DNA of 64,000 nt from Serratia marcescens (GTDB lineage: Bacteria; Pseudomonadota; Gammaproteobacteria; Enterobacterales; Enterobacteriaceae): contig NZ_VFMJ01000001.1 in the NCBI RefSeq assembly GCF_006715005.1, positions 3,224,001-3,288,000 on the forward strand, given 5' to 3'. The translations under genes and the position numbers were made by a program. Within the stretch, counting starts at the first letter, position 1, and every line of letters starts with the position of its first letter. Positions 12,612 to 63,059 of the stretch are shown here, in pieces. The notes below the pieces were generated by a model, which saw only the letters and a program-made list of their open reading frames with translations, searched no databases and had not been told where the DNA came from.

Positions 12612-13337
<726 letters not shown>

Positions 13338-13377
13338 ACGCCGGCCTTAGCGTTCTCCGCCCTGGCGGGGAACGTCA

Positions 13378-13860
13378 TCAAGGTTCAAACGGCCGGCGCT
13401 GGAACTGGTCGTGACCGCATTTCGGGCAAAGCGGCAGCACCTCCGGCGTGTAGAACGCCAGGTGGTAATGGCACTGCTCGCACACCAGATTGCCCAGCCC
13501 CACCACTTCACCGCTGTGGTAAACGCCGTGGTGGCTGACATCCTTGAACACCTCGCGCCACTCCAGCTGGGTTTTGTCGGTGATATCCGCCAGTTCCTGC
13601 CACAGGCTCTCTTTGATCACCCGCATAAACACGCTGTCGGTAAACTCGTCCCGGCTTTCCTGATAGCTGCGGGCGAACTCTTCCAGATCGCGCCGCACCG
13701 CCTGCGTCACCTGCCGCACCTCGTCGCGGGTCAGATCTTCGGCCTCGTTCAACCGCCGCTCCGCGCTGGCCACCAGTTCGTCGATATCGCGCTCACCGTT
13801 TTTCAGGCGTTCGGTCAGCGATGCCACCAATTCGCGGTAATACTGAGCAACCTTGTTCAT
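13378..13860 (-). CDS. ybeL: DUF1451 zinc-ribbon protein YbeL
   Basis: A 160-residue protein of unknown function. The N-terminal two thirds are charged helix (about 1-85), and the C-terminus is a zinc ribbon with CEQC near residue 126 and CPKC near residue 144. It is divergent from leuS, as in E. coli. A GGAGAG Shine-Dalgarno lies a few bases before the ATG on the minus strand. Confidence 0.93.
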   Translation of the reverse strand: MNKVAQYYRELVASLTERLKNGERDIDELVASAERRLNEAEDLTRDEVRQVTQAVRRDLEEFARSYQESRDEFTDSVFMRVIKESLWQELADITDKTQLEWREVFKDVSHHGVYHSGEVVGLGNLVCEQCHYHLAFYTPEVLPLCPKCGHDQFQRRPFEP

Positions 13861-13982
13861 AGACTCTCCTCGATAAACGCTGCGCCGGACTTGGCTGTAG
13901 GGATACCCCTAAGCTACTTGTTCTTATTTTAGCCGTAAATGACTGATGTCACTTGGCAAGACGCGGGATCCGCAGGTTGTGA

Positions 13983-14007
13983 GCCGCGTCATGGCGGCGT
14001 TTTTTTT
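13983..14007 (+). terminator. Orphan rightward terminator in the ybeL-leuS gap
   Basis: GCCGC/GCGGC stem with a GTCAT loop followed by eight T residues (14000-14007) and AAA. It reads on the plus strand, but no plus-strand gene precedes it: ybeL points away and rightward azoR ended 640 nt earlier. It must end either a short independent RNA or an attenuated leuS leader. Confidence 0.55.
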
Positions 14008-14033
14008 AAATGCGCCGAGTCAGGCGCTTGGAG

Positions 14034-14063
14034 TTGTTGCCGGGAGGTCTTATCAGCTATGCT
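14034..14063 (+). promoter_or_regulatory. Putative leuS promoter
   Basis: TTGTTG (14034-14039) and TATGCT (14058-14063) with an 18-bp spacer, just downstream of the orphan terminator. This would give a leader of about 75 nt before leuS. Confidence 0.45.
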
Positions 14064-14145
14064 ATGCGGATCTACGAATACTAAATGTTCATTGCGTTGC
14101 CTCTGACCGAGGCAACGGTTTACACCTACAGGACCACCGGCCGCC

Positions 14146-16728
14146 ATGCAAGAGCAATACCGTCCAGAAGACATAGAATCGAACGTACAGCTTCACTGGC
14201 AAGAGAAGCAGACTTTCAAAGTTACCGAAGACGACAGCAAGGAAAAGTACTACTGCCTATCCATGCTGCCTTACCCGTCCGGCCGACTGCACATGGGCCA
14301 CGTTCGTAACTACACTATCGGCGACGTGATCTCGCGCTATCAGCGCATGCTGGGCAAAAACGTACTGCAGCCGATCGGCTGGGATGCGTTCGGCCTGCCG
14401 GCGGAAGGTGCGGCGGTGAAAAACAACACCGCACCGGCCCCGTGGACCTACGACAACATCGAATACATGAAGAACCAGCTGAAACTGCTGGGCTTCGGCT
14501 ACGACTGGGATCGCGAAATCGCCACCTGCCAGCCGGAATACTACCGCTGGGAACAGTGGTTCTTCACCAAGCTGTATGAAAAAGGCCTGGTCTACAAGAA
14601 GACCTCGGCGGTGAACTGGTGCCCGCACGATCTGACCGTGCTGGCCAACGAACAGGTTATCGACGGCTGCTGCTGGCGCTGCGACACCAAGGTCGAGCGT
14701 AAAGAGATCCCGCAGTGGTTCATCAAAATCACCGCCTACGCCGATCAGCTGCTGAACGATCTGGACACGCTTGAAAGCTGGCCGGAGCAGGTGAAAACCA
14801 TGCAGCGCAACTGGATTGGCCGCTCCGAAGGCGTGGAAATCACCTTCGACGTGGCGGACAGCGAAGAGAAGCTGACGGTTTATACCACCCGTCCCGACAC
14901 CTTCATGGGCGCCACCTACGTGGCGGTCGCCGCGGGTCACCCGCTGGCGCAACAGGGCGCGCGCAACAACCCGGCGCTGACCGACTTCATCGACGAATGC
15001 CGCAACACCAAAGTGGCCGAAGCCGAAATGGCGACGATGGAGAAGAAAGGCATGCCGACCGGCCTGTTCGTTGTCCACCCGCTGAGCGGCGAGAAGCTGC
15101 CGGTGTGGGTCGCCAACTTCGTGCTGATGGAATACGGCACCGGCGCCGTGATGGCGGTACCGGCGCACGACCAGCGCGACTGGGAATTCGCCACCAAATA
15201 CGATTTGCCGATCAAACCGGTGATCCTGAACCTCGACGGCAGCCAGCCTGACGTGAGCGCCGAAGCGATGACCGACAAGGGCGCGCTGTTCAACTCCGGC
15301 GAGTTCGACGGCCTGGACAATGAAGCGGGCTTCAATGCCATCGCCGACAAACTGGTCGCCAAGGGCGTAGGCCAGCGTAAGGTCAACTACCGTCTGCGCG
15401 ACTGGGGCGTCTCCCGTCAGCGTTACTGGGGTGCGCCAATCCCGATGGTGACGCTGGAAGACGGCACCGTGATGCCGACGCCGGAAGACCAGCTGCCGGT
15501 GATCCTGCCGGAAGACGTGGTCATGGACGGCATCACCAGCCCGATCAAGGCCGATCCTGAGTGGGCGAAGACCACCGTCGACGGCCAGCCGGCGCTGCGT
15601 GAAACCGACACTTTCGACACCTTTATGGAGTCTTCCTGGTACTACGCGCGCTACACCTGCCCGCAGTACGACCAGGGCATGCTGGATCCGGCCGCCGCCA
15701 ACTACTGGCTGCCGGTCGATCAATATATCGGCGGTATCGAACACGCCATCATGCACCTGATGTACTTCCGCTTCTTCCACAAGCTGATGCGCGATGCGGG
15801 CCTGGTGGACTCCGACGAGCCGGCCAAGCGCCTGCTGTGTCAGGGCATGGTGCTGGCCGACGCCTTCTACTACACCGGCAACAGCGGCGAGCGCGTCTGG
15901 GTATCTCCGGTTGACGCCACCGTCGAGCGTGACGACAAGGGCCGCATCATCAAGGCCACCGATCCGCAAGGCCGTGAACTGGTCTATGCTGGCATGAGCA
16001 AAATGTCGAAGTCGAAGAACAACGGCATCGACCCACAGGAAATGGTGGAAAAATACGGCGCGGACACCGTGCGTCTGTTCATGATGTTCGCTTCACCGGC
16101 AGAAATGACGCTGGAGTGGCAGGAGTCCGGCGTGGAAGGGGCTAACCGCTTCCTGAAACGCGTGTGGAAACTGGCCTACGATCACGTGGCAAAAGGCGCG
16201 GTACAGCCGCTGGACGTGGCGGCGCTGAACGAAGATCAGAAAGCGCTGCGCCGCGATCTGCACAAAACCATCGCCAAAGTGACCGACGATGTCGGCCGCC
16301 GTCAGACCTTCAACACCGCGATCGCCGCCGTGATGGAGCTGATGAACAAGCTGGCCCGCGCGCCACAGGAGAGCGAGCAGGATCGCGCGCTGCTGCAGGA
16401 AGCGCTGCTGGCCGTGGTTCGCATGCTGTATCCGTTCACCCCGCACGTGTGCTTCACCCTGTGGCAGGCGCTGGGCGGCGAAGGCGACGTGGACACCGCG
16501 CCATGGCCGGTTGCCGACGAACAGGCAATGGTCGAGGACTCCAAGCTGGTGGTGGTGCAGGTGAACGGCAAGGTTCGCGCTAAAATCACCGTATCTGCCG
16601 ATGCGACCGAAGAGCAAGTGCGCGCGCGCGCTGCCGAAGAGCATCTGGTGGCTAAATATCTGGACGGCGTCACGATTCGCAAAGTGATCTACGTTCCGGG
16701 CAAACTGCTTAACCTGGTTGTGGGTTAA
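14146..16728 (+). CDS. leuS: Leucyl-tRNA synthetase
   Basis: A class I aminoacyl-tRNA synthetase of 860 residues, the standard bacterial length. The HIGH-type motif is [11 protein letters not shown] near residue 42; the CP1 editing domain is about residues 225-415, with TTRPDTFMG near residue 248; KMSKS is in [10 protein letters not shown] near residue 618. The C-terminal anticodon-binding and tRNA-binding domains follow. First gene of leuS-lptE-holA-nadD. Confidence 0.98.
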
Positions 16729-51014: not shown

Positions 51015-51109
51015 GGATTACTCTCCAATATTGCAGTGGGTAGGTGATTGGTTTGTGTGTATATGTTAAAATACCTAATAAAATTAAATATATTGGTGAA
51101 AAACAAGAG

Positions 51110-52171
51110 ATGAAGAAACAACTTAACCCATGGTTAGATATATGCCGAGCAACTGCAATATTGCTTGTTCTACTCTCCCACGGTCGAATTTTCATCACAC
51201 CAATATTCCCTAACGCTAACATATTAAAATTCGGCGGATTTCTTGGGGTTGAGTTTTTTTTCGTGCTTTCCGGCTTTTTAATCGGGGGGATTATTTTAGA
51301 TAAAATAAAAACTTCTAAGTCGCCAGCATCATGGGTTCCTGAATTTTGGGGTAGAAGATGGATGCGTACATACCCAAGCTACTTACTTTTTATTATTATT
51401 AACATTTTAATAATATCTAGTGTTAGGCAGGAACCATTCCCTAATCTAGTAAAGTTTCTTACATTTACTCAAAGCTTATTATCTCCTCACCCATCATTTT
51501 TCGGTGAGGCATGGAGCCTTGCGGTAGAAGAGATTTTTTATTTTATAACTCCAATCGTACTATCAGTTTTTATTGCTATAACCAACAATAAAAGAATCAG
51601 TGTTTTATTAACCATCTCCTTACTAATCATAATTCCAGTCATGCTGCGTATTCATGCATCTCTATATACCGACATGACTTTCAACGAAATCAGGTCAACT
51701 GCACTCTGTAGAATAGACTCCATAATGATTGGTGTCATAGCAGTCATTGCTTATAATAAAATCGGTTCCACGCGTATAGTTAAGACTGGAGTTCTACTAA
51801 TACCTTTATGCATTTACATTGCGTCCAAACCCGACTCATTCATGGATGAAAGTAAAATTTTAAAAGTACTTTTATTCCCGGTTGCAAATGTAGGATTTGC
51901 TTGCTTAATTTGCGCCGGATATAGAATTAGCGCAAGTCCAATAATTAACTATCCATTCTCAAAAATCGCACGATGGTCATACGCAGCTTATTTGACAAAC
52001 CTTCCAGCATTAGTATCAATACGTTATTTTTTCCTACCCCCTACAACTTTTCTCGAATGTTTAATGCAATGGTTCCTTTTCATTTTCATTACTTTGTTAA
52101 GTGCCTGGTTGGTCTACTCATTTTTCGAAAAGTCAGTTTTATCCATGAGGGATAAACTAATTCCAAGTTGA
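51110..52171 (+). CDS. Acyltransferase family 3 (O-antigen acetyltransferase-like)
   Basis: 353 residues and about ten membrane helices. The family signatures are the early His (LLVLLSHGR, near residue 22), GGFLGVEFFFVLSGFLIGG near residue 43 and EAWSLAVEEIFYFITP near residue 130. Such enzymes O-acetylate LPS or other surface glycans. The gene is clearly AT-rich against the GC-rich prophage, reads opposite to the tail genes, and has its own AT-rich upstream region and terminator: a typical lysogenic-conversion cargo gene. ATG 51110; the longer upstream frame is not family-like. Confidence 0.88.
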   Translation: MKKQLNPWLDICRATAILLVLLSHGRIFITPIFPNANILKFGGFLGVEFFFVLSGFLIGGIILDKIKTSKSPASWVPEFWGRRWMRTYPSYLLFIIINILIISSVRQEPFPNLVKFLTFTQSLLSPHPSFFGEAWSLAVEEIFYFITPIVLSVFIAITNNKRISVLLTISLLIIIPVMLRIHASLYTDMTFNEIRSTALCRIDSIMIGVIAVIAYNKIGSTRIVKTGVLLIPLCIYIASKPDSFMDESKILKVLLFPVANVGFACLICAGYRISASPIINYPFSKIARWSYAAYLTNLPALVSIRYFFLPPTTFLECLMQWFLFIFITLLSAWLVYSFFEKSVLSMRDKLIPS

Positions 52172-55591: not shown

Positions 55592-56658
55592 CGATTTAGC
55601 TCCTGCACCTGGCTATAGAATTGATAGGGTTGAACGGCAAATGCTTCTTTCGGCATCATGATGAGATTGGCCCGCGTGCCTCGCTCGTCACGGGTAAAGG
55701 TGACCTCCGCCAGAAGCCACTGCACGTTATTGAGCCCAAAAACAGGAATATTGATGGGGATCAGCGTATTCGGCTCCCACAGTTTCCCGGCCTTGTCTCG
55801 CCAGCTATCGATCTCCACCTGCAGGCGTCGTGAACGGCCATATCTCCGGTTCATCTCCCAGTCGATGCAGTTTTGCGCCTGTCCATGAGAGTTCATCGTG
55901 CTCTCAACGATGACAATCCGATTGCGGTAGCGCATTTTGGCGACTTCCGGATCCTGGGCGCGCGCCAGAGTAACGGCGGAATAGCCGCTATCCGGGGACA
56001 ACTCCATCGCCGGCGTCATCGACATTGATACCCCGACATAATCGGAAAAACGTTCGTCCATCGATGACATGAAAGATGCCGTCTCAATATTTTCCCCTTG
56101 CGCCACGCCGCTGGCCGCCTTGGCGATTCCGACGCGGGTAAGGAAAAGACTTCCATCGGGCTTGTCGTAATATAGCAGTGCGGCCCAACGGGTGATCCGG
56201 TCGATCACTTCTTGCGAAGACTCCCCCCAGTTCAGGGTAAATTGGGGAACCGTCGTCATATTATTCACGTCGCTACTGACGGTGATGCCGTATGGTGCCG
56301 CCAGCTTTTGCGCTATCTGCAGGGCATTAGCCTGGCTGATCACGTTGTTAGGCCATTCAGCTGAACAATCCACCAGGTCCTGGCATTTACTCCTTCCCGT
56401 AGCGCGAACTTCATGGCGCTCTTTGCCAATCACCGGATTCCAGCGATCGACATAGCCGGTCATGACCAGATCATCCCCTAGATGCACCGTGCAGCTGTCT
56501 CCGGGCAGCACCAGCTGCTTTTCTTCGTTACCGGGGTAGTAGTCCATCAACGACAAGTCGAAATCCGATGGCAAGCGCTCAATGCCTCGCGTAACGCGAA
56601 CAGAATCCCAGCCGGAAATTCGCTTACCGCCGGCCGTCAAAATCAGTTCATCTTTCAT
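55588..56658 (-). CDS. Baseplate hub protein, Mu gp44 (P)-like
   Basis: 356 residues. The first domain (KRISGWDSVRVTRGIERLPSDFDLSLMDYYPG) and GYVDRWNP-type features are those of the gp44/gpD hub family. It forms the trimer under the tail tube that holds the gp45 spike. Overlaps the gpN gene by 4 nt. Confidence 0.9.
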   Translation of the reverse strand: MKDELILTAGGKRISGWDSVRVTRGIERLPSDFDLSLMDYYPGNEEKQLVLPGDSCTVHLGDDLVMTGYVDRWNPVIGKERHEVRATGRSKCQDLVDCSAEWPNNVISQANALQIAQKLAAPYGITVSSDVNNMTTVPQFTLNWGESSQEVIDRITRWAALLYYDKPDGSLFLTRVGIAKAASGVAQGENIETASFMSSMDERFSDYVGVSMSMTPAMELSPDSGYSAVTLARAQDPEVAKMRYRNRIVIVESTMNSHGQAQNCIDWEMNRRYGRSRRLQVEIDSWRDKAGKLWEPNTLIPINIPVFGLNNVQWLLAEVTFTRDERGTRANLIMMPKEAFAVQPYQFYSQVQELNR

Positions 56659-58058
56659 TTTCTCAGCGCTTTAAATTTGGTGGGCATGAATGCCGGATGG
56701 CGCGGCCCGACAGACTGAACCAGTTCATCACCCCGAGCACCGTCCTGATACATGCGGTTGGCCAGCACCAACGCCGGTAACGATGTGGGCATAACAACCT
56801 GGGTCAGTGAACTAAGAACGGCGCCTTTCTGGCTGTAGGCGTTGACCAGCGCATCGCGGGTTTGCAACAGGTTCAGATAATCGTCGTCGTCCCCGGCATC
56901 CGCCGCCATCAGCAGCACCTCATCCAGCGTGTCGCAGACGCGATTAAGCATCAAAATGGCATCGTCATAGCTTGATGGCTCATAATTGGCGGCGGTCGCT
57001 GCCAGTGCGCCGGCGGACAGTACGCAGAGCAAGATAGTGGCGCCATTGGCTACCGAATTTTCACCCGAGGTGGCGTAAAACGTGGTGTTTCGATACGAGG
57101 CCAACGTTTCCAGCATGCGGATTTTTTCTTCTACACTGCCGCTGAACGAAATGACCGCATCAATGATGGCCCTGGCATCAACGGGGAAGGCATCGACGGA
57201 GGCTACCCCCTCAAATGTGGCCGTGAGCGCCAACAATTCGGCGCGTCCTGTTACCGCTTGCGCCATTTTTTGGTTAACCAATCCGGCGTAATTGTCGGTA
57301 TCTGCTGTTCGATTTACTGCACCGGTTGATCCCGAAACTCCTCCCCCTACGGTGCCTTTGTTGTATCGCCCATACCGGGCGCTACCGAAGGTCGATTTCA
57401 GGACATTACTGAGATTAGTGACCTCATTTGCGGTGCTTTTCACCATGTTTCCCCAAAACGCAGCGGTATTGCGCAACGTCTTGATGGTCTGAGTTACACT
57501 GCGGATCTCACCTTTAACCGTGGCAATAAATTTTGTGGCCGCCATCAGGCCGGTTCGTAACCAGTTTGCCTGAACCAGTGATGCCGCCTGAGTGCTGCCG
57601 GTAATCGCAAACACCTTTAAACCGGACTCAATGACCGTCAGGGTAAACTCGAAGGAACGGCCGTTATCCACGCTCTCAAGTACCCGCAAACCGCCATCCG
57701 GCACACTTACGGTAAGCTCCCCAAGCGTCGGATGTATCAACGTACCCGGCCCTTCCGTCTCGCACGCAGCCACCAGCGAATCACGCTGCGTTATCACGTC
57801 AGGTGCGTCATACGCCAGGCTGTTATGGACGATGAAACCCCTGATCGTTAATTTGCGCGTACCACGCCCCAAGTCTTCAACCCAGGCGGTGTTGCGATAA
57901 GGGTATTCATGCACGGCCTGGCGCCGACCAAATACGCCTTCGGCACTGACTACCGCAAAGGGAATGCCACGAAATGATGCCGGGTGAATATGCTCGAACC
58001 AGTCCCAGCTCTCTCCACTCCCCAACAGGGAAGATAGTGCGTCATTGATTAGAGCCAT
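56655..58058 (-). CDS. DNA circularization / tail protein gpN-like
   Basis: 467 residues. The N-terminal DNA_circ_N domain is diagnostic: SWDWFEHIHPASFRGIPFAV and GRRQAVHEYPYRNTAWVEDLG. In Mu, gpN is a baseplate/tail protein. First gene of the baseplate block after the inserted immunity cassette; a terminator stands just ahead of it. Confidence 0.9.
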   Translation of the reverse strand: MALINDALSSLLGSGESWDWFEHIHPASFRGIPFAVVSAEGVFGRRQAVHEYPYRNTAWVEDLGRGTRKLTIRGFIVHNSLAYDAPDVITQRDSLVAACETEGPGTLIHPTLGELTVSVPDGGLRVLESVDNGRSFEFTLTVIESGLKVFAITGSTQAASLVQANWLRTGLMAATKFIATVKGEIRSVTQTIKTLRNTAAFWGNMVKSTANEVTNLSNVLKSTFGSARYGRYNKGTVGGGVSGSTGAVNRTADTDNYAGLVNQKMAQAVTGRAELLALTATFEGVASVDAFPVDARAIIDAVISFSGSVEEKIRMLETLASYRNTTFYATSGENSVANGATILLCVLSAGALAATAANYEPSSYDDAILMLNRVCDTLDEVLLMAADAGDDDDYLNLLQTRDALVNAYSQKGAVLSSLTQVVMPTSLPALVLANRMYQDGARGDELVQSVGPRHPAFMPTKFKALRK

Positions 58059-58072
58059 CTTTTCTCCAGAAA

Positions 58073-58096
58073 CAAAAAACCCGCAATTAAGCGGGT
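58073..58096 (-). terminator. Terminator between ORF6N gene and gpN gene
   Basis: On the minus strand AACCCGC/GCGGGTT stem followed by TTTTTTG. It would stop the antirepressor transcript before gpN, so the baseplate block needs its own promoter or antitermination. Confidence 0.82.
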
Positions 58097-58122
58097 TGGA
58101 TAGGTGTAATCAATTCTGACTG

Positions 58123-58908
58123 TTAAAACAGCTTGCGGAGGTCTACTCCATATACCGCCATCCACGCTTCCCGTGGCCACGATTTTACTGTGCCAAACCG
58201 GGGGTCTTCGACGCTATGTGGCACTGCGTCGTTTTCTCTGCACCACTTGCGAAGCGGCTGCCATTTAAACTTTTCACCGGTTTTCTTCTCCACCGGGATA
58301 ATGGCAGCGTAATTCTTTCCTTCTCCAAGACGCTCAGCAAGTCTGTTCTTCTCCCGCACGGCTACCGATGCAGTTGCCATCGCCGTGGCCTCGCGTTTCT
58401 CGCCAATCCAGCGCCGCTCCTTAATTGCACGATCGCGTTGTTCCGTAACTATGCGATTTTCTTTAACCTTTGCCAGCAGGTTTTCAAGTGCGTGCTCGTA
58501 GTCCAATGGCAAGCCAACGGATTCGCGAGGTCTGAAGTATGAATCTTCCAGTTTCTCGAAGAATGACCATGCTTCATCGGTATCAACGATCTTGGACATA
58601 CGGGCAGCACCCTTTTCAGTCCAAAGAGTAAGCGAACGGGCATTCTTACCAACAGAGCCACTATCATTGGCTCTGTTCTTAAATTCGCGTAACTCGTTGC
58701 CTGATAACGTGAATAGGTGCATTCCCTCCACGAACCGCCCCTTATTGTTAGCTAGATTCATGCGGATACTTTTTTCTTGGCACCCATAACCCTTAGCCAA
58801 AGTTTCGGTGGTGACGACTCTTGTTCCACCCCACTCCATAACTGGCAGAATATCAGGATCGACAATGTGCGCTGTCTTTGCTACATTTACAGCTGTTGAT
58901 TGTTGCAT
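58123..58908 (-). CDS. ORF6N-domain phage antirepressor-like protein
   Basis: 261 residues. Residues about 15-130 are an ORF6N domain (TRVVTTETLAKGYGCQEKSI; GRFVEGMHLFTLSG; RSLTLWTEKGAARMSKIVDTDEAWSFFE). A charged coiled-coil follows (about 138-195), then a C-terminal domain (KWQPLRKWCRENDAV; WPREAWMAVYGVDL) seen in antirepressors. These proteins bind and inactivate phage repressors. Shine-Dalgarno GGAG is 6 nt before the ATG. A predicted antisense RNA covers that start. Confidence 0.85.
   Translation of the reverse strand: MQQSTAVNVAKTAHIVDPDILPVMEWGGTRVVTTETLAKGYGCQEKSIRMNLANNKGRFVEGMHLFTLSGNELREFKNRANDSGSVGKNARSLTLWTEKGAARMSKIVDTDEAWSFFEKLEDSYFRPRESVGLPLDYEHALENLLAKVKENRIVTEQRDRAIKERRWIGEKREATAMATASVAVREKNRLAERLGEGKNYAAIIPVEKKTGEKFKWQPLRKWCRENDAVPHSVEDPRFGTVKSWPREAWMAVYGVDLRKLF
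58859..58887 (+). promoter_or_regulatory. Promoter of the predicted antisense RNA
   Basis: On the plus strand TCGACA (58859-58864; 5 of 6 to consensus), 17 bp, TACATT (58882-58887). It lies inside the ORF6N coding region and points away from it. Confidence 0.5.
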
Positions 58909-58966
58909 TCAAATCTCCAATCAGTAGTGACATAAGCCGCCAGCCCTACACTGGCGGTTTTTATTT
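58894..58966 (+). ncRNA. Predicted sar-like antisense RNA to the antirepressor
   Basis: From the promoter above, transcription would start near 58894, cross the antirepressor start codon (58908) and Shine-Dalgarno (58915-58918) on the opposite strand, and end at a strong plus-strand terminator: CCGCCAG/CTGGCGG with a 7-nt loop and TTTTTATTT (58937-58966). Length is about 70 nt. P22 sar RNA, which blocks translation of ant, has the same length, orientation and target position. No plus-strand gene otherwise explains this terminator. Confidence 0.6.
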
Positions 58967-58989
58967 GCCCAATGTCAGGGGCAAAATCC

Positions 58990-59523
58990 CTAATGCTTCC
59001 GCATCATTTTCTCCGTCGCTGGTCTGCGACTTATAAAACCTGTTGGCTCAAAACCCAAGTCTGTGGCAAGTCCACGCGCGATCGCCTTGAACGTATCAGC
59101 CTTTCCCAGAAGCTCAACATCAGCACCAAACACGTTATCTCTGATGATGACTTTCACGAAATATCGGTGAAGAGGTGAGTTCTCCGGCATTCGGGCCGCC
59201 TCTCTATCCAATATATCCAGAACCCAACGACGGAACTCTTTAGCTACAGGAGTGCGGGCGAACATAGCTATCAGATGAGCTCCGCGCAGTGAGAAAATCC
59301 GTGTCGCCTGCGTTCCACTTGGGGTGGTCAAATTGACCACCCCTGTCATGTTGTCTGTAAATTCATCAGCGTGTCGCGAGTAAATGCGTTGTACCGCCTT
59401 ATCGTCGGCATACTGCAGCGCGTAGCCGATTTGGGATGCCGTTAACCATATGCCTGGCACTTCGGTTACCGGAGACAAAATCACACCATGGAAATTAAGA
59501 TCGGTCTTCGCTACAATGTTCAT
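58990..59523 (-). CDS. BRO-N domain antirepressor-like protein
   Basis: 177 residues. The BRO-N domain covers most of it (FHGVILSPVTEVPGIWLTAS; ALQYADDKAVQRIYSRHADE; FSLRGAHLIAMFARTPVAKE; WVLDILDRE). The start is uncertain: I use ATG 59523 because MNIVAKTDLNFHG begins the domain. ATG 59550 and GTG 59610 are in frame, but the extra residues are not domain-like and GTG 59610 overlaps the Arc-like gene. A second antirepressor-class protein directly before ORF6N. Confidence 0.8.
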   Translation of the reverse strand: MNIVAKTDLNFHGVILSPVTEVPGIWLTASQIGYALQYADDKAVQRIYSRHADEFTDNMTGVVNLTTPSGTQATRIFSLRGAHLIAMFARTPVAKEFRRWVLDILDREAARMPENSPLHRYFVKVIIRDNVFGADVELLGKADTFKAIARGLATDLGFEPTGFISRRPATEKMMRKH

Positions 59524-59590
59524 GTTGGTTTCTCGCAAAGTTACTGACATAGAGACCCGGTTAGTGTTCGCGCACAGCCGGGTTTCGCCG

Positions 59591-59764
59591 TTATTCAATT
59601 GTAATTTCACCCTTCCTCTCCATTTCCATCAAACGATTCATCAAGTAGTCCATCATTCCCTGTGCTGATCGGTATGTCTTCGCCGCGTTACGATCCACGA
59701 ATTCACGAATTTCAGGACGCATGCGATACGACATCAGCTTGCTGTTAACTGCCTTTTGCTCCAT
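59591..59764 (-). CDS. Arc-like ribbon-helix-helix DNA-binding protein
   Basis: 57 residues. A short beta segment (KLMSYRMRPEIREFVDRNA) followed by two helices ending MMDYLMNRLMEMERKGEI matches Arc/Mnt-type ribbon-helix-helix repressors in size and pattern. ATG 59764 has GAGG 6 nt ahead. First gene after the strong leftward promoter, so it probably represses that promoter as Arc represses Pant in P22. Confidence 0.8.
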   Translation of the reverse strand: MEQKAVNSKLMSYRMRPEIREFVDRNAAKTYRSAQGMMDYLMNRLMEMERKGEITIE

Positions 59765-59813
59765 TATGCACCTCATGTATTTTTGCATATCACAACATCA
59801 CAAGTTAGATTTG

Positions 59814-59842
59814 ACTATATTACGCACATATCGATGTGTCAA
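59814..59842 (-). promoter_or_regulatory. Strong leftward promoter with operator in the spacer
   Basis: On the minus strand TTGACA (59842-59837), 17 bp, TATAGT (59819-59814). The spacer contains the dyad CACAT-ATCG-ATGTG (59825-59838), which also touches the -35. Further CACAT/ATGTG half-sites are at 59842-59846 and 59860-59864. It drives the Arc-like, BRO-N and ORF6N genes and should be repressed by the divergent CI-like protein or the Arc-like protein. Confidence 0.8.
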
Positions 59843-59864
59843 TGTGATTTTTTATGGTGCACAT

Positions 59865-60686
59865 ATGAATATTGATGACTCATTCTACAAAAGAGTAGCC
59901 GTAGCCAGAACCTCGCTGGGGTTGACTCAATCCCAGCTCGCTGAGGCTGTCGGTGTGGTAAGGCGTCAAATAGCTGCTTATGAAGCAGGAAACTCGAAAC
60001 CGCGTGAAGGGGTTTTAAAAAACCTTGCTGCCACTCTCGGTACATCTGTTGAATGGCTTAGTTCTGGTAATGGTGTAGGGCCCGACGTTAGCAACATAAA
60101 GCGAACGGTAACGGTTAGAGAGATCCCCCTACTTTCTCACTCTCAAGCCATTAGGTTTAGTCTCGGTGAAGCATCAGAAGTCTCAATCCTTGACTTTATC
60201 CCAGCTCCAACCACTACCGGGGAGGAACTATTTGCCTTAAAAATTGATGGCGATTCGATGATGGCAACTGATGGCATCAGTTTTCCTGATGGGATCATAG
60301 TCACCTTTGACCCAAAAATACATGCGACTAGTGGTTCTTTTATTCTTTGCCATTTGAATGACACAGGAGAAACCACATTCAAACAACTAATAACTGATCA
60401 GGGAATAACATACTTAAAACCGCTTAATCCTGAGTATCCAACGATAAAGCCAAGCGATTTCTATATCGCTGGCGTAGCTATTCATGCTCAATTTTTTGTG
60501 CCAGTTGGTAGGTCTAGACCAAACTCTAGGGCGATCGCAATTGAAGCACTCAATGAGAAAAACGAAATAACAAAAAACAAAAACTTAAACAATAAAATCA
60601 ACGCACTGGAGAATAAAATAGACACATTGATTAACTTAATCACCTCAGGCAACAATGCGATTGATACATCTAATCGCAATGACTAG
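59865..60686 (+). CDS. CI-like phage repressor (XRE helix-turn-helix plus S24 peptidase)
   Basis: 273 residues. XRE helix-turn-helix about 10-65 (SLGLTQSQLAEAVGVVRRQIAAYEAG). LexA/CI-type S24 domain about 110-220, with Ser131 in GDSMM and Lys173 in TFKQL, 42 apart as in lambda CI, so RecA-stimulated self-cleavage is likely; the cleavage dipeptide is not obvious. A C-terminal heptad-like tail (LNNKINALENKIDTLINLI, about 237-258) is unusual for the family. ATG 59865 has only a weak GGTG ahead and may be leaderless. Divergent from the antirepressor operon. Confidence 0.88.
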   Translation: MNIDDSFYKRVAVARTSLGLTQSQLAEAVGVVRRQIAAYEAGNSKPREGVLKNLAATLGTSVEWLSSGNGVGPDVSNIKRTVTVREIPLLSHSQAIRFSLGEASEVSILDFIPAPTTTGEELFALKIDGDSMMATDGISFPDGIIVTFDPKIHATSGSFILCHLNDTGETTFKQLITDQGITYLKPLNPEYPTIKPSDFYIAGVAIHAQFFVPVGRSRPNSRAIAIEALNEKNEITKNKNLNNKINALENKIDTLINLITSGNNAIDTSNRND

Positions 60687-60703
60687 GTTAGGAAGTGACA
60701 TCC

Positions 60704-60733
60704 TGAAAAAATAAAGCCCACTTAAAGGTGGGC
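60704..60733 (-). terminator. Leftward terminator closing the tape-measure transcript
   Basis: On the minus strand GCCCAC/GTGGGC stem followed by TTTATTTTTTC. It ends the transcript of the tape-measure and downstream hypothetical genes before the repressor gene, which is convergent with it. Confidence 0.78.
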
Positions 60734-60775
60734 ATACAACACTAGATTTAAAATAATAACTCACAGATATAAATA

Positions 60776-61171
60776 TCAATTTAGCAATCTAGTTTTCAAC
60801 CCTACACCATCAACATATTTTATTTCGTACTGCTCATTTAACGGGGTGTTAATAACAGCCACTTTATCATTAATAATGATGAATTTATTAACTTCTAAAT
60901 TGGCGTTTTTATTTGCAATCTCCTTTATATTTACAACACTATAACAGAGTTCCCCATGACTCTCGTAGAAAGACTCTGTTTTATCATTACAGTTTCTTGA
61001 TTGGTCTATCATTCCTTTAAACACATACCCATAATATGATGCAACCACTATTGCCGCTACCGCAATAAACCTCATGAGAGATCTGAGCACTGACGGCTCT
61101 TTCTTAAAAGAATAAAAAACAGAAAACAGGAAAAACACCGAACCTAATAAAATTGCATTCCACAAGCTCAT
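60776..61171 (-). CDS. Hypothetical membrane protein in the immunity/tail junction
   Basis: 131 residues. Two N-terminal membrane helices (about 5-20 and 34-52) flank a short basic loop (SFKKEPSVLRSLMR), then a soluble C-terminal domain of about 75 residues with two cysteines (CNDKTES; GELCYS). AT-rich compared with the tail genes. Not a known tail family; location and build suggest a prophage cargo gene such as a superinfection-exclusion protein, but I do not recognise it. Confidence 0.65.
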   Translation of the reverse strand: MSLWNAILLGSVFFLFSVFYSFKKEPSVLRSLMRFIAVAAIVVASYYGYVFKGMIDQSRNCNDKTESFYESHGELCYSVVNIKEIANKNANLEVNKFIIINDKVAVINTPLNEQYEIKYVDGVGLKTRLLN

Positions 61172-61226
61172 TTCGTACCATCCATATGACGTAATGAATC
61201 AGTTCAGTGTCAATGCTAGCACAATG

Positions 61227-63059
61227 CTACTGGAAGTTCATTGAGGTTGATACCCGAGCCCCATCGTTACCAATGATAGTACGCCGCTCGCCCGTCTTAC
61301 TATCAACTAGCGTTAACTCAATCTGCATCTTGCTGTCTTGCATGGTTTTATTTAACGATGTTATGGCTGACAACAAATCTTGATTTGCTCCAGATGAATC
61401 CCCCTGTCGTCCTGGCCCGCTGAAAATCCGAGAGGTGTTGTCTTTTGATGCTCGTGAATAGCCAGAATCTGATCCATCACCCTGAGGGTAGAACATCGGT
61501 AATCCAGGCATAATCTTTTGCAAGTAATCACGGGTTTCCCGCGGTGCTCTTGCAAGCCCTTTATCACTTACTCGATTTGGCCCCCAATTATATGCCGCAA
61601 CTGCCTTGCTCACATCCCCATCAAATCTTTTTAACAGGTCTGACAGATAACGCGCAGCCGCATCGCTGGATTTATAGAAATCCATTCGGTCAGATCTATT
61701 ATTAAGCCCATAATCTCTACCGGTAGGTGGCATAAACTGGAATGGGCCTTCTGCCCCGGCGGAGGAAAAAAGCTTTTTCCCTCGCGATGACTCAGTATTC
61801 CAGACCCTATCCAACAACCCCGGCGGGAGGTTGTTTTTTGTCTCTAATTTAAACAAATGCTGCTGCTCAGGTGTATTCCCCAATGCCTGATCTATAGGGT
61901 TGCTCACATTCTGTGGTAGGGGATGCATAACTTGTTCTAAATCATTTTGCAGTTGTTTCCCGACCTTCTCTGCATGCCAGGCCGGTTTATAATATCCGTT
62001 CAGTTTCTTGATCAGATCTTCTGACGCATAGCCCAGTTTTAAATCCAGCTTCTCTTTCCATGACAGCGTGTCTTTAAATTTCTCATCGCCTTGAGCCTGC
62101 CGCAAAACATCGGCCTGTTTCCCGCCGCTGTTAAACGTCAGGATCGAACCGATAGCCGTACTGTCCAGACCATTGGTGACGACCTGCTTGATCTGGTCTA
62201 CCGAAGCCGCCAAGGTTTCCGACTGGCCCAGCCAGGCCTGCCCTTTCATCAGCATGCCGTCGTAGGCAGCACCTATCTGGTTCAGCTGCTGCTTGAACGC
62301 CAGGGCATTCTGCAGATCCTTCTCGGTAAATATCAGGCCATCCCGGCGGGCTTGATCCTTGAGCCTTTGAACTTCACTGGTCGTGTTGCGCAGATAGCTG
62401 AGAAGATCGGGCGAAAGGCCCAATTTGTTGGCAAACAGCGCCTGCTGCCCAGCAGGGAGTGATTGCATAGCGCGGTTGAGGTCGTTAATCAGCTTGCCTA
62501 CATCGGCCAGGCCATCCTTGGTTTCACTGATCCCTATCCCCCGCTGTTTCAGCAAGGCGAGAAAGCCATCATTACGGCCGTGTACAGCATCATTCGCCTT
62601 TTCAAATAACTCACTGACCGATCCTTCCGCAGCCTCACGCGCGCTGCCGTTTTCAATCATGGCGCCAGTCAGTTCCTGAAAGGCGTCCGCCGTCATGCTG
62701 ACGTTTTTTGCAACGGTATCGATCCGGTAGCCGGCGTTGGCAAAATTGGTCAGGTTGTTTTTAACAACGTTGACGACCGCTGCAGCGCCACCCAGCCCGA
62801 GGGTTAATCCACCGACCATTTTGAGCGGCGGGACCAAATCGCCGATGAATTGGACGCCGCTTCTGGCATTTTTAGCCAACACATCAAAACGGCTGCCCAA
62901 ATCGTCAAGGTTATCTCTGGATTCCTGACCGCCCAACGCCAACGCATCGCGCGTTCTGTCCAACAGCGGATTGAGGTGCTTTACAATTTCCTCAATCCGC
63001 AGAATTGCGGCTGACGCCTCATCATTAGCCGTCAGCTCAAAGTCGAATGAGTTGGCCAT
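61227..63059 (-). CDS. Tape-measure protein with lytic transglycosylase domain
   Basis: 610 residues. The N-terminal helical part (about 1-120) has a hydrophobic glycine-rich segment (KMVGGLTLGLGGAAAVVNVV); the middle is long helix. The C-terminal SLT domain (about 410-525) has catalytic Glu423 in NTESSRG, GPFQFMPPTGRDYG and AVAAYNWGPNRV. It sets tail length and cuts murein on DNA entry. At 1.5 A per residue it predicts a tail of about 90 nm or less. ATG 63059 overlaps the stop of the frameshifted chaperone (TAATG). Confidence 0.9.
   Translation of the reverse strand: MANSFDFELTANDEASAAILRIEEIVKHLNPLLDRTRDALALGGQESRDNLDDLGSRFDVLAKNARSGVQFIGDLVPPLKMVGGLTLGLGGAAAVVNVVKNNLTNFANAGYRIDTVAKNVSMTADAFQELTGAMIENGSAREAAEGSVSELFEKANDAVHGRNDGFLALLKQRGIGISETKDGLADVGKLINDLNRAMQSLPAGQQALFANKLGLSPDLLSYLRNTTSEVQRLKDQARRDGLIFTEKDLQNALAFKQQLNQIGAAYDGMLMKGQAWLGQSETLAASVDQIKQVVTNGLDSTAIGSILTFNSGGKQADVLRQAQGDEKFKDTLSWKEKLDLKLGYASEDLIKKLNGYYKPAWHAEKVGKQLQNDLEQVMHPLPQNVSNPIDQALGNTPEQQHLFKLETKNNLPPGLLDRVWNTESSRGKKLFSSAGAEGPFQFMPPTGRDYGLNNRSDRMDFYKSSDAAARYLSDLLKRFDGDVSKAVAAYNWGPNRVSDKGLARAPRETRDYLQKIMPGLPMFYPQGDGSDSGYSRASKDNTSRIFSGPGRQGDSSGANQDLLSAITSLNKTMQDSKMQIELTLVDSKTGERRTIIGNDGARVSTSMNFQ

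Follow-up and report, generated by a model that had tools for sequence, protein, structure and literature searches.

A stretch of 64,000 nucleotides of a Serratia marcescens chromosome (contig NZ_VFMJ01000001.1, positions 3,224,001 to 3,288,000; hereafter the window, which is part of one chromosome, G000:C1:3224001-3288000) contains a prophage with a Mu-type tail, and between the tape measure gene and gpN of this tail lies a four-gene cassette. We consider it likely that the cassette is a secondary immunity unit of the P22 immI kind, located at a moron hotspot of the tail operon and working as proposed below. This reading draws on gene content, a promoter match, a predicted RNA fold, covariation in the second hairpin of that RNA, conservation of its antisense promoter, block exchange among relatives, loss of the Ala-Gly cleavage pair from the cassette repressors and a Q gene of the prophage, all of which can be read from sequence, whereas repression, antirepression, timing, RNA action and read-through would follow by analogy with P22 and with antirepressor studies.

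As an earlier sequence-only reading of this DNA had proposed, the four cassette genes are open reading frames between tape measure and gpN, with the repressor gene divergent from the others, and Pfam, PHROG and profile matches bear out their assignment. The divergent gene (59865-60686, + strand) encodes a protein with S24 (PF00717, E 1.4e-15) and helix-turn-helix (HTH; PF01381, HTH_3) domains and takes the place of Mnt. The other three genes, on the - strand, probably share one transcript, to judge from their layout. The first encodes a 57-aa ribbon-helix-helix (RHH) protein (59591-59764; phrog_10182), the counterpart of Arc; taken singly, this protein is matched neither by a Pfam RHH family nor, by tblastn at E up to 0.01, by anything in the phage records, but when it is combined with nine relatives the resulting profile aligns with one of Arc/Mnt (hhalign probability 90.6, E 1.3e-6), and RHH proteins head its matches in the PDB (AmrZ at E 0.0018, CopG and Arc). 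The second encodes a Bro-N protein of 177 aa (58990-59523; PF02498, E 8.1e-9; phrog_245, anti-repressor Ant, E 1.1e-39), for which a PDB search returned no match; we place its start at ATG 59523, as the beginning MNIVA is common to 5/5 aligned proteins and an alternative in-frame GTG at 59610 would run into the RHH gene. The third encodes an ORF6N-domain protein of 261 aa (58123-58908; PF10543, E 3.6e-19; phrog_4936, E 7.9e-90). Both the Bro-N and the ORF6N protein appear to be of antirepressor type, given their matches to PHROG families labelled anti-repressor.

The likeness to P22 immI (that is, mnt-arc-sar-ant, with sieA) proves stronger than the sequence-only reading had claimed, as a palindrome in the promoter spacer and a sar-like RNA can be added to it. 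Both systems combine a position in a late operon, a divergent repressor gene, a Pant-type promoter with an operator (a candidate in our case) in its spacer, a small RHH gene, a two-hairpin antisense RNA over the RHH/ant junction (predicted in our case) and a terminator after the effector. In the P22 record, immI (13336-16035) has an arc operator in the Pant spacer and an mnt operator, its ant gene is followed by a terminator, and sar RNA is encoded on the other strand (15021-15090). The late-operon position, previously seen as a contrast to P22, is in fact common ground, as this record and two publications (PMC2629481; PMC8022706) alike place P22 immI between late genes 16 and 9. Villafane et al. 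2008 name this variable region the 'ant moron', distinguish ten types in sixteen genomes and predict Sar in phage epsilon34 too (PMC2629481), and the Serratia cassette can be regarded as an immI-type variant of this moron. It differs from immI in having an S24/HTH instead of a Mnt-family (RHH) repressor, Bro-N and ORF6N proteins instead of Ant, a place in a Mu-type tail operon, where tape measure and gpN genes flank it, and an RNA too diverged for the Rfam sar family (RF00262).

Intermediate arrangements exist in other phages. S24-type cassettes occur at the P22 16/9 site itself (JEP4, L159, L160 and L163), and that of Escherichia phage JEP4 (MT740315) shares with ours the S24 protein (42% identical over 209 residues), a 57-aa RHH protein, a sar-like RNA and Bro-N, but differs in its KilA-annotated second gene, a catalytic Ser replaced by Ala, its podovirus late operon and an extra mnt-annotated gene before the tailspike gene. 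Salmonella phage SPN3UB/S107 likewise has RHH, Bro-N (50% identical over 123 residues) and ORF6N (60%) genes in tandem inside a tail operon; its divergent repressor, however, is Arc/Mnt-like, and the place is between the tail tube region and the tape measure gene. Tandem antirepressor genes, which had been thought unusual, are common: a second antirepressor-type gene follows Bro-N in 47/63 distinct Bro-N loci with room downstream. Tandem repressor-type genes are also seen, with two Mnt-like matches, one of them with an Arc-type RHH gene, upstream of a single Bro-N gene at L154:1525-4762.

The RHH operon is preceded by a Pant-type promoter (TTGACA-17-TATAGT, 59814-59842, - strand, 11/12), which outscores every other promoter-like site in the region, although such sites are near chance in number (8 found, 6.3 expected). 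Its spacer holds the palindrome CACAT-n4-ATGTG (59825-59838), a candidate operator that is the sole match in 64 kb against 0.08 expected, a figure that is no test because the pattern was taken from the site itself. The palindrome is absent from the next 40 kb; we therefore set aside the idea of an operator common to the cassette and the main CI region, where none was found.

The element that ties the cassette most closely to P22 went unmentioned in the sequence-only reading. The RHH/Bro-N junction is a conserved, covarying element in relatives, with which the P22 arc/ant junction aligns, and on the + strand it is predicted to encode a sar-like RNA (59524-59598; 46.6 bits, E 1e-7) that is complementary to the junction and to the Bro-N ribosome-binding region and whose second hairpin is a terminator. 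Its predicted start lies directly before the Bro-N ATG, just as P22 sar begins before the ant ATG, and the two RNAs are predicted to fold alike, into two hairpins, at -28.4 kcal/mol (z -3.9) in the window and -29.5 (z -5.3) in P22 sar. To obtain the alignment behind the following counts, 26 tblastn pieces in which the Bro-N start was not aligned from residue 1 were removed (including those of a set of prophages, for example L089, L096, L107, L111 and L120, where the region upstream of Bro-N is unrelated), as was L120:1466-1547 (from 83 to 82 RNA sequences). The two-hairpin fold is found in 82/82 aligned sequences versus 187/1640 mononucleotide shuffles. In the second hairpin, to which the covariation test applied, the lower stem shows double changes at 7/7 tested pairs, with 99.8% of cells paired and 0/500 shuffles as good. 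A putative sar-type antisense promoter (TGGAAA-17-TACAAT, 59489-59517, + strand, 9/12) lies inside the Bro-N gene; its -10 element (-12 to -7) reads TACAAT, TACACT or a near variant (TAnnnT) in 82/82 aligned cassettes and its -35 element TGGAA in 80/82. Consistent with this, Val4 of Bro-N is coded by GTA in 83/83 cases, as opposed to 115/705 of later Val codons.

A covariance model trained on 44 sequences, with the window and its nearest kin left out, finds the site at 59524-59598 and nothing else, either in the window (E up to 10) or in the whole 5.57-Mb genome (E up to 0.001). By comparison, Rfam RF00262 gives no match in the window between 57500 and 61500 at E up to 1, and while scoring P22 at 97.8 bits it reaches its cut-off in just 3/38 loci tested. 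Other Rfam families do not account for the RNA: SymR (RF01809) scores 27.5 bits against a gathering threshold of 61, the symR locus is not matched by our model (E up to 10), and matches to IsrK (19.1 bits) and Trp-leader (25.2 bits) near the left terminator are far below cut-off and were taken as terminator noise. With the window genome included, the model matches in 5/30 genomes of the genus and 47/295 genomes of the family (40/154 genera), the family scan having used stricter filters through which weak matches may be lost; sar-like RNAs thus look common in enterobacterial prophages. We examined 34 of these loci, comprising 30 of the 62 family places listed and, from the genus, every place except that of the window itself (4 of 5). 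In 28 of them a long open reading frame starts within two bases of the RNA 5' end, and every one of these 28 target genes encodes Bro-N (21) or P22_AR_N (7); at L227 no start codon was found. The remaining RNAs are antisense to short open reading frames (around 1500 in L206, L208 and L209 and around 900 in L235; also in L239), and those of L206 and L208, the two scanned, match PHROG 'transcriptional repressor' families, so that a second use of the same RNA type is possible. Among the papers listed in our literature searches (for several searches, the top-ranked entries), from which most subscription journals were absent, we recognised no description of a wider sar family.

The cassette appears to be built from two exchangeable blocks. 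The immunity block (59588-60703), comprising the S24 gene, promoter and candidate operator, and RHH gene, is replaced in L048/L050 by Mnt-like and Arc-like genes (the L048 Mnt-like protein belonging to the Arc family, PF03869), with the DNA flanking the swap 85% and 92% identical to the window; the tail genes are held in common (tube and gpN 100%), and Bro-N and ORF6N are 72% and 85% identical. The effector block (58074-59592; sar-like RNA, Bro-N, ORF6N and terminator) is 97% identical to L126 and 86% to L046, in both of which it stands beside siphovirus-type tail genes. Block edges fall at the sar hairpin and at both terminators. Among 108 distinct Bro-N places, the divergent repressor is Mnt-like in at least 66 and of S24 type in at least 18, with none recognised in 24, and an RHH protein of the kind shared by the window, JEP4 and PSTNGR2lys occurs in 17/18 S24 cassettes and one Mnt-like cassette. 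As no tail gene was recognised by our queries at 51 of the 108 places, context counts are lower bounds; the loci were gathered by Bro-N and ORF6N queries (best 80 per search), which biases their gene content. A scan of genome contigs gave 16 loci with an ORF6N relative, beside which Bro-N was recognised in two (L020 and L021). The L021 contig, labelled Chryseobacterium sp. 18061, has an enterobacterial-type cassette with a 68% identical ORF6N protein and tape-measure matches, and is likely to reflect contamination or mislabelling.

Comparison of gene order shows that the cassette is an insert. In phage BZS1, which has the same tail (tape measure protein 61%, gpN 91% identical), gpN directly follows the tape measure gene, and the two are also side by side in two prophages of genome G025 and in one broken prophage of G028. 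Among 32 gpN loci in viral contigs, 19 are empty (34-48 bases between the genes), 10 hold other inserts (494-1413 bases) and 3 have the cassette; one of the last is the window prophage itself (L045, 100% identical over 8.5 kb), and the other two align to the window with equal figures and could represent a single phage that was sampled twice. In the seven other inserts whose open reading frames we examined, four encode exported-looking proteins of 151-255 aa, two of them on the opposite strand (L246:4218-4952, -; L259:4219-4986, -; L255:4433-4888, +; L256:4442-4909, +), which are candidates for lysogenic conversion or exclusion. On the basis of these counts and the variety of inserts, we regard the junction as a moron hotspot. 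At the same junction of a more distant tail (gpN 73%), L261:4131-4694 (-) encodes a 187-aa ORF6N-like protein on the opposite strand.

Leftward terminators, each with a T-run, were found on both sides as anticipated, before gpN (58073-58097) and on the tape-measure side (60704-60733), where the latter forms the right edge of the exchanged block and homology to L048/L050 resumes at 60704; the scan places the two hairpins at 58097-58078 and 60733-60716, and the number of terminators in it is near chance (3 found, 3.1 expected in shuffles). The one before gpN recurs at the cassette-free junctions of BZS1 and G025, and a hairpin with a T-run, read from the sequences, precedes gpN in 19/19 empty junctions (weakest in L257). 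This terminator therefore predates the cassette, and late transcription must have been able to get past it beforehand. A Q antiterminator is encoded by the prophage (PF03589, E 1.7e-34), and on the - strand no promoter-like site was found from ORF6N to gpN. Given the older terminator, the Q antiterminator and the lack of such a site, the cassette does not imply the separate late promoter for the baseplate genes that it had been thought to require, and we reject that consequence.

Phage lambda and P22 repressors are cleaved at Ala-Gly, according to Lemire et al. 2011 (PMC3121763). We added P22 C2 and the prophage's presumed main CI (L036:19033-19710) to an alignment of 17 distinct cassette S24 proteins and read the residues by eye: in the linker where P22 C2 has Ala-Gly, the pair is present in 0/17, with Ala-Ile at that position in the window protein, whereas the presumed main CI has Ala-Gly two residues further along the same linker. 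The Ser is lost in 4/17 and the Lys replaced by Arg in 8/17, and both are kept in 7/17, including the window protein. The description 'CI-like' calls for qualification on this point; of the features of LexA/CI-type autocleavage, the window protein has the Ser-Lys dyad and lacks Ala-Gly. Since the pair is missing, the S24 protein probably stays intact in SOS. Mnt is unresponsive to SOS, and the cassette S24 proteins probably do not answer to it either, which would make them SOS-blind stand-ins for Mnt.

Together, these observations suggest the following sequence of events. In a lysogen, the S24 protein, in place of Mnt, would keep the Pant-type promoter shut, and under SOS it would probably stay intact, unlike the presumed main CI. 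On entry into a cell that lacks this S24 protein, the promoter would fire and the RHH, Bro-N and ORF6N proteins would be made, whereupon the antirepressors could inactivate CI-type repressors (the phage's own or those of a resident prophage) and thereby favour lytic growth; according to earlier work quoted in PMC3121763, Ant of P22 is active against the P22, L, lambda and 21 repressors. The RHH protein would then repress its own promoter and, together with the sar-like RNA, limit the pulse, the RNA pairing with the Bro-N ribosome-binding region so that translation stops. The RNA may also act on late transcripts that Q antitermination carries on from the tape measure gene into the cassette.

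Several points weigh against this scenario. The palindrome is a single site chosen after it had been seen, and no operator consensus is established across S24 cassettes. As the window S24 protein keeps Ser and Lys, it might be cleaved at another site. The sar-like RNA is a prediction for which the covariation test covered the second hairpin, its T-run in the window is short (three), and the aligned RNA sequences are related and cannot be counted as independent. Part of the GTA excess is due to early-codon bias (GTA makes up 30/49 in codons 2-12 of ORF6N). Finally, the model was trained on Bro-N junctions and P22, which favours Bro-N targets, and 5/34 loci (L206, L208, L209, L235 and L239) face short open reading frames rather than antirepressors.

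Cleavage elsewhere in the S24 protein would suit a different switch, in which RecA-triggered cleavage releases the antirepressors under SOS and induces this and other prophages (Gifsy-like in effect). Such a switch has a parallel in the Fels-1 antirepressor FsoA, which is described as controlled by its own phage repressor and not by LexA (PMC3121763), and it would use the Ser and Lys kept in the window protein. Yet we think it unlikely, given that all 17 cassette S24 proteins lack the Ala-Gly pair found in the presumed main CI, that many have lost the Ser or exchanged the Lys, and that Mnt-like proteins take the place of S24 in relatives. Direct LexA control finds little footing: the one LexA-like candidate in 57900-61300 (11/20, near 58114) lies at the ORF6N 3' end, away from the promoter. 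The Gifsy and Fels antirepressors are like those proposed here in being made outside the main immunity region and acting on CI-type repressors, but the Gifsy genes are LexA-controlled (Lemire et al. 2011, PMC3121763), whereas the cassette would be governed by its own repressor, the RHH protein and the predicted RNA.

A decayed or silent remnant without present function would have precedent in the degraded ant morons of some P22-like phages (noted in PMC2629481), but seems improbable for a cassette whose frames are open, whose promoters and RNA are conserved and whose type recurs at this site in two further contigs. The weak SymR match (SymR being the antitoxin RNA of symE) could hint instead at a toxin-antitoxin or abortive-infection unit, made of the RHH, Bro-N and ORF6N proteins with an antisense RNA and serving no immunity switch; we consider this very improbable, since the sar-like model has no match at the symR locus and, the short-frame loci aside, the long targets of the sar-like RNAs are without exception Bro-N or P22_AR_N genes. 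That the cassette is a fixed tail accessory for assembly or timing (through transcriptional pausing or termination on the way from tape measure to baseplate genes) is scarcely credible when 19/32 gpN loci have no insert, 10 have other inserts and the effector block occurs beside other tail types, even though PMC2629481 reports that the P22 ant moron possibly influences how far late transcription continues into the tailspike gene.

The surroundings of the cassette are those of an otherwise recognisable prophage, which begins near 47.5 kb of the window and extends into the 29 kb beyond it (ends judged by gene content) and has its integrase at L037:7622-8782. To the left lies gpN, a DNA circularisation-type baseplate hub (56655-58058, - strand; PF07157, E 1.4e-30; phrog_184), and to the right the tape measure gene (61227-63059, - strand; phrog_2276, E 3.9e-71). 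Between the latter and the cassette, outside the exchanged block, is a gene for a 131-aa membrane-type protein (60776-61171, - strand) that the sequence-only reading had passed over. A tblastn search (E up to 0.01) found no match to this protein among 50,697 phage records, and in a scan of close relatives it occurs in three viral contigs, the same three that have this cassette type; its relative place is like that of P22 sieA, yet it is transcribed with the late genes, and it is possibly an exclusion protein. Further afield, an acyltransferase-like membrane protein (51044-52171, + strand) is encoded among the tail-fibre genes and may modify O-antigen on lysogeny; BZS1 has an OafA-like annotated gene at a similar place, the likeness being one of position and annotation. 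A gene adjoining the capsid gene (L036:2438-2953) encodes a long Thr-Asp dipeptide repeat, and a further KilA-N protein (L036:17324-18061) lies in the early region, near the presumed main CI.

In summary, what is most valuable here is how widespread sar-like control is predicted to be and how cleanly the blocks are exchanged, rather than where the cassette sits. With slightly less than even confidence, we propose that sar, far from being peculiar to the P22 group, is the RNA brake of a large class of exchangeable enterobacterial antirepressor cassettes, in which S24 plus RHH or Mnt plus Arc blocks are shuffled against Bro-N or Ant with ORF6N or KilA, the terminator hairpin of the RNA marks the shuffling joint and cleavage-less CI-type proteins substitute for Mnt as SOS-blind repressors. 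Under this proposal, sar would have been kept for late-operon read-through, because repressors bound to DNA at Pant cannot stop transcripts that read through from upstream and only an antisense RNA can. The P22 secondary immunity region would then be one among many widespread, interchangeable cassettes, and a covariance model can find the antisense RNA where Rfam does not. Such a framework opens to experiment the questions of why late operons of temperate phages contain a second immunity system that is independent of SOS, and of how immunity specificity is swapped while the structural genes stay undisturbed.

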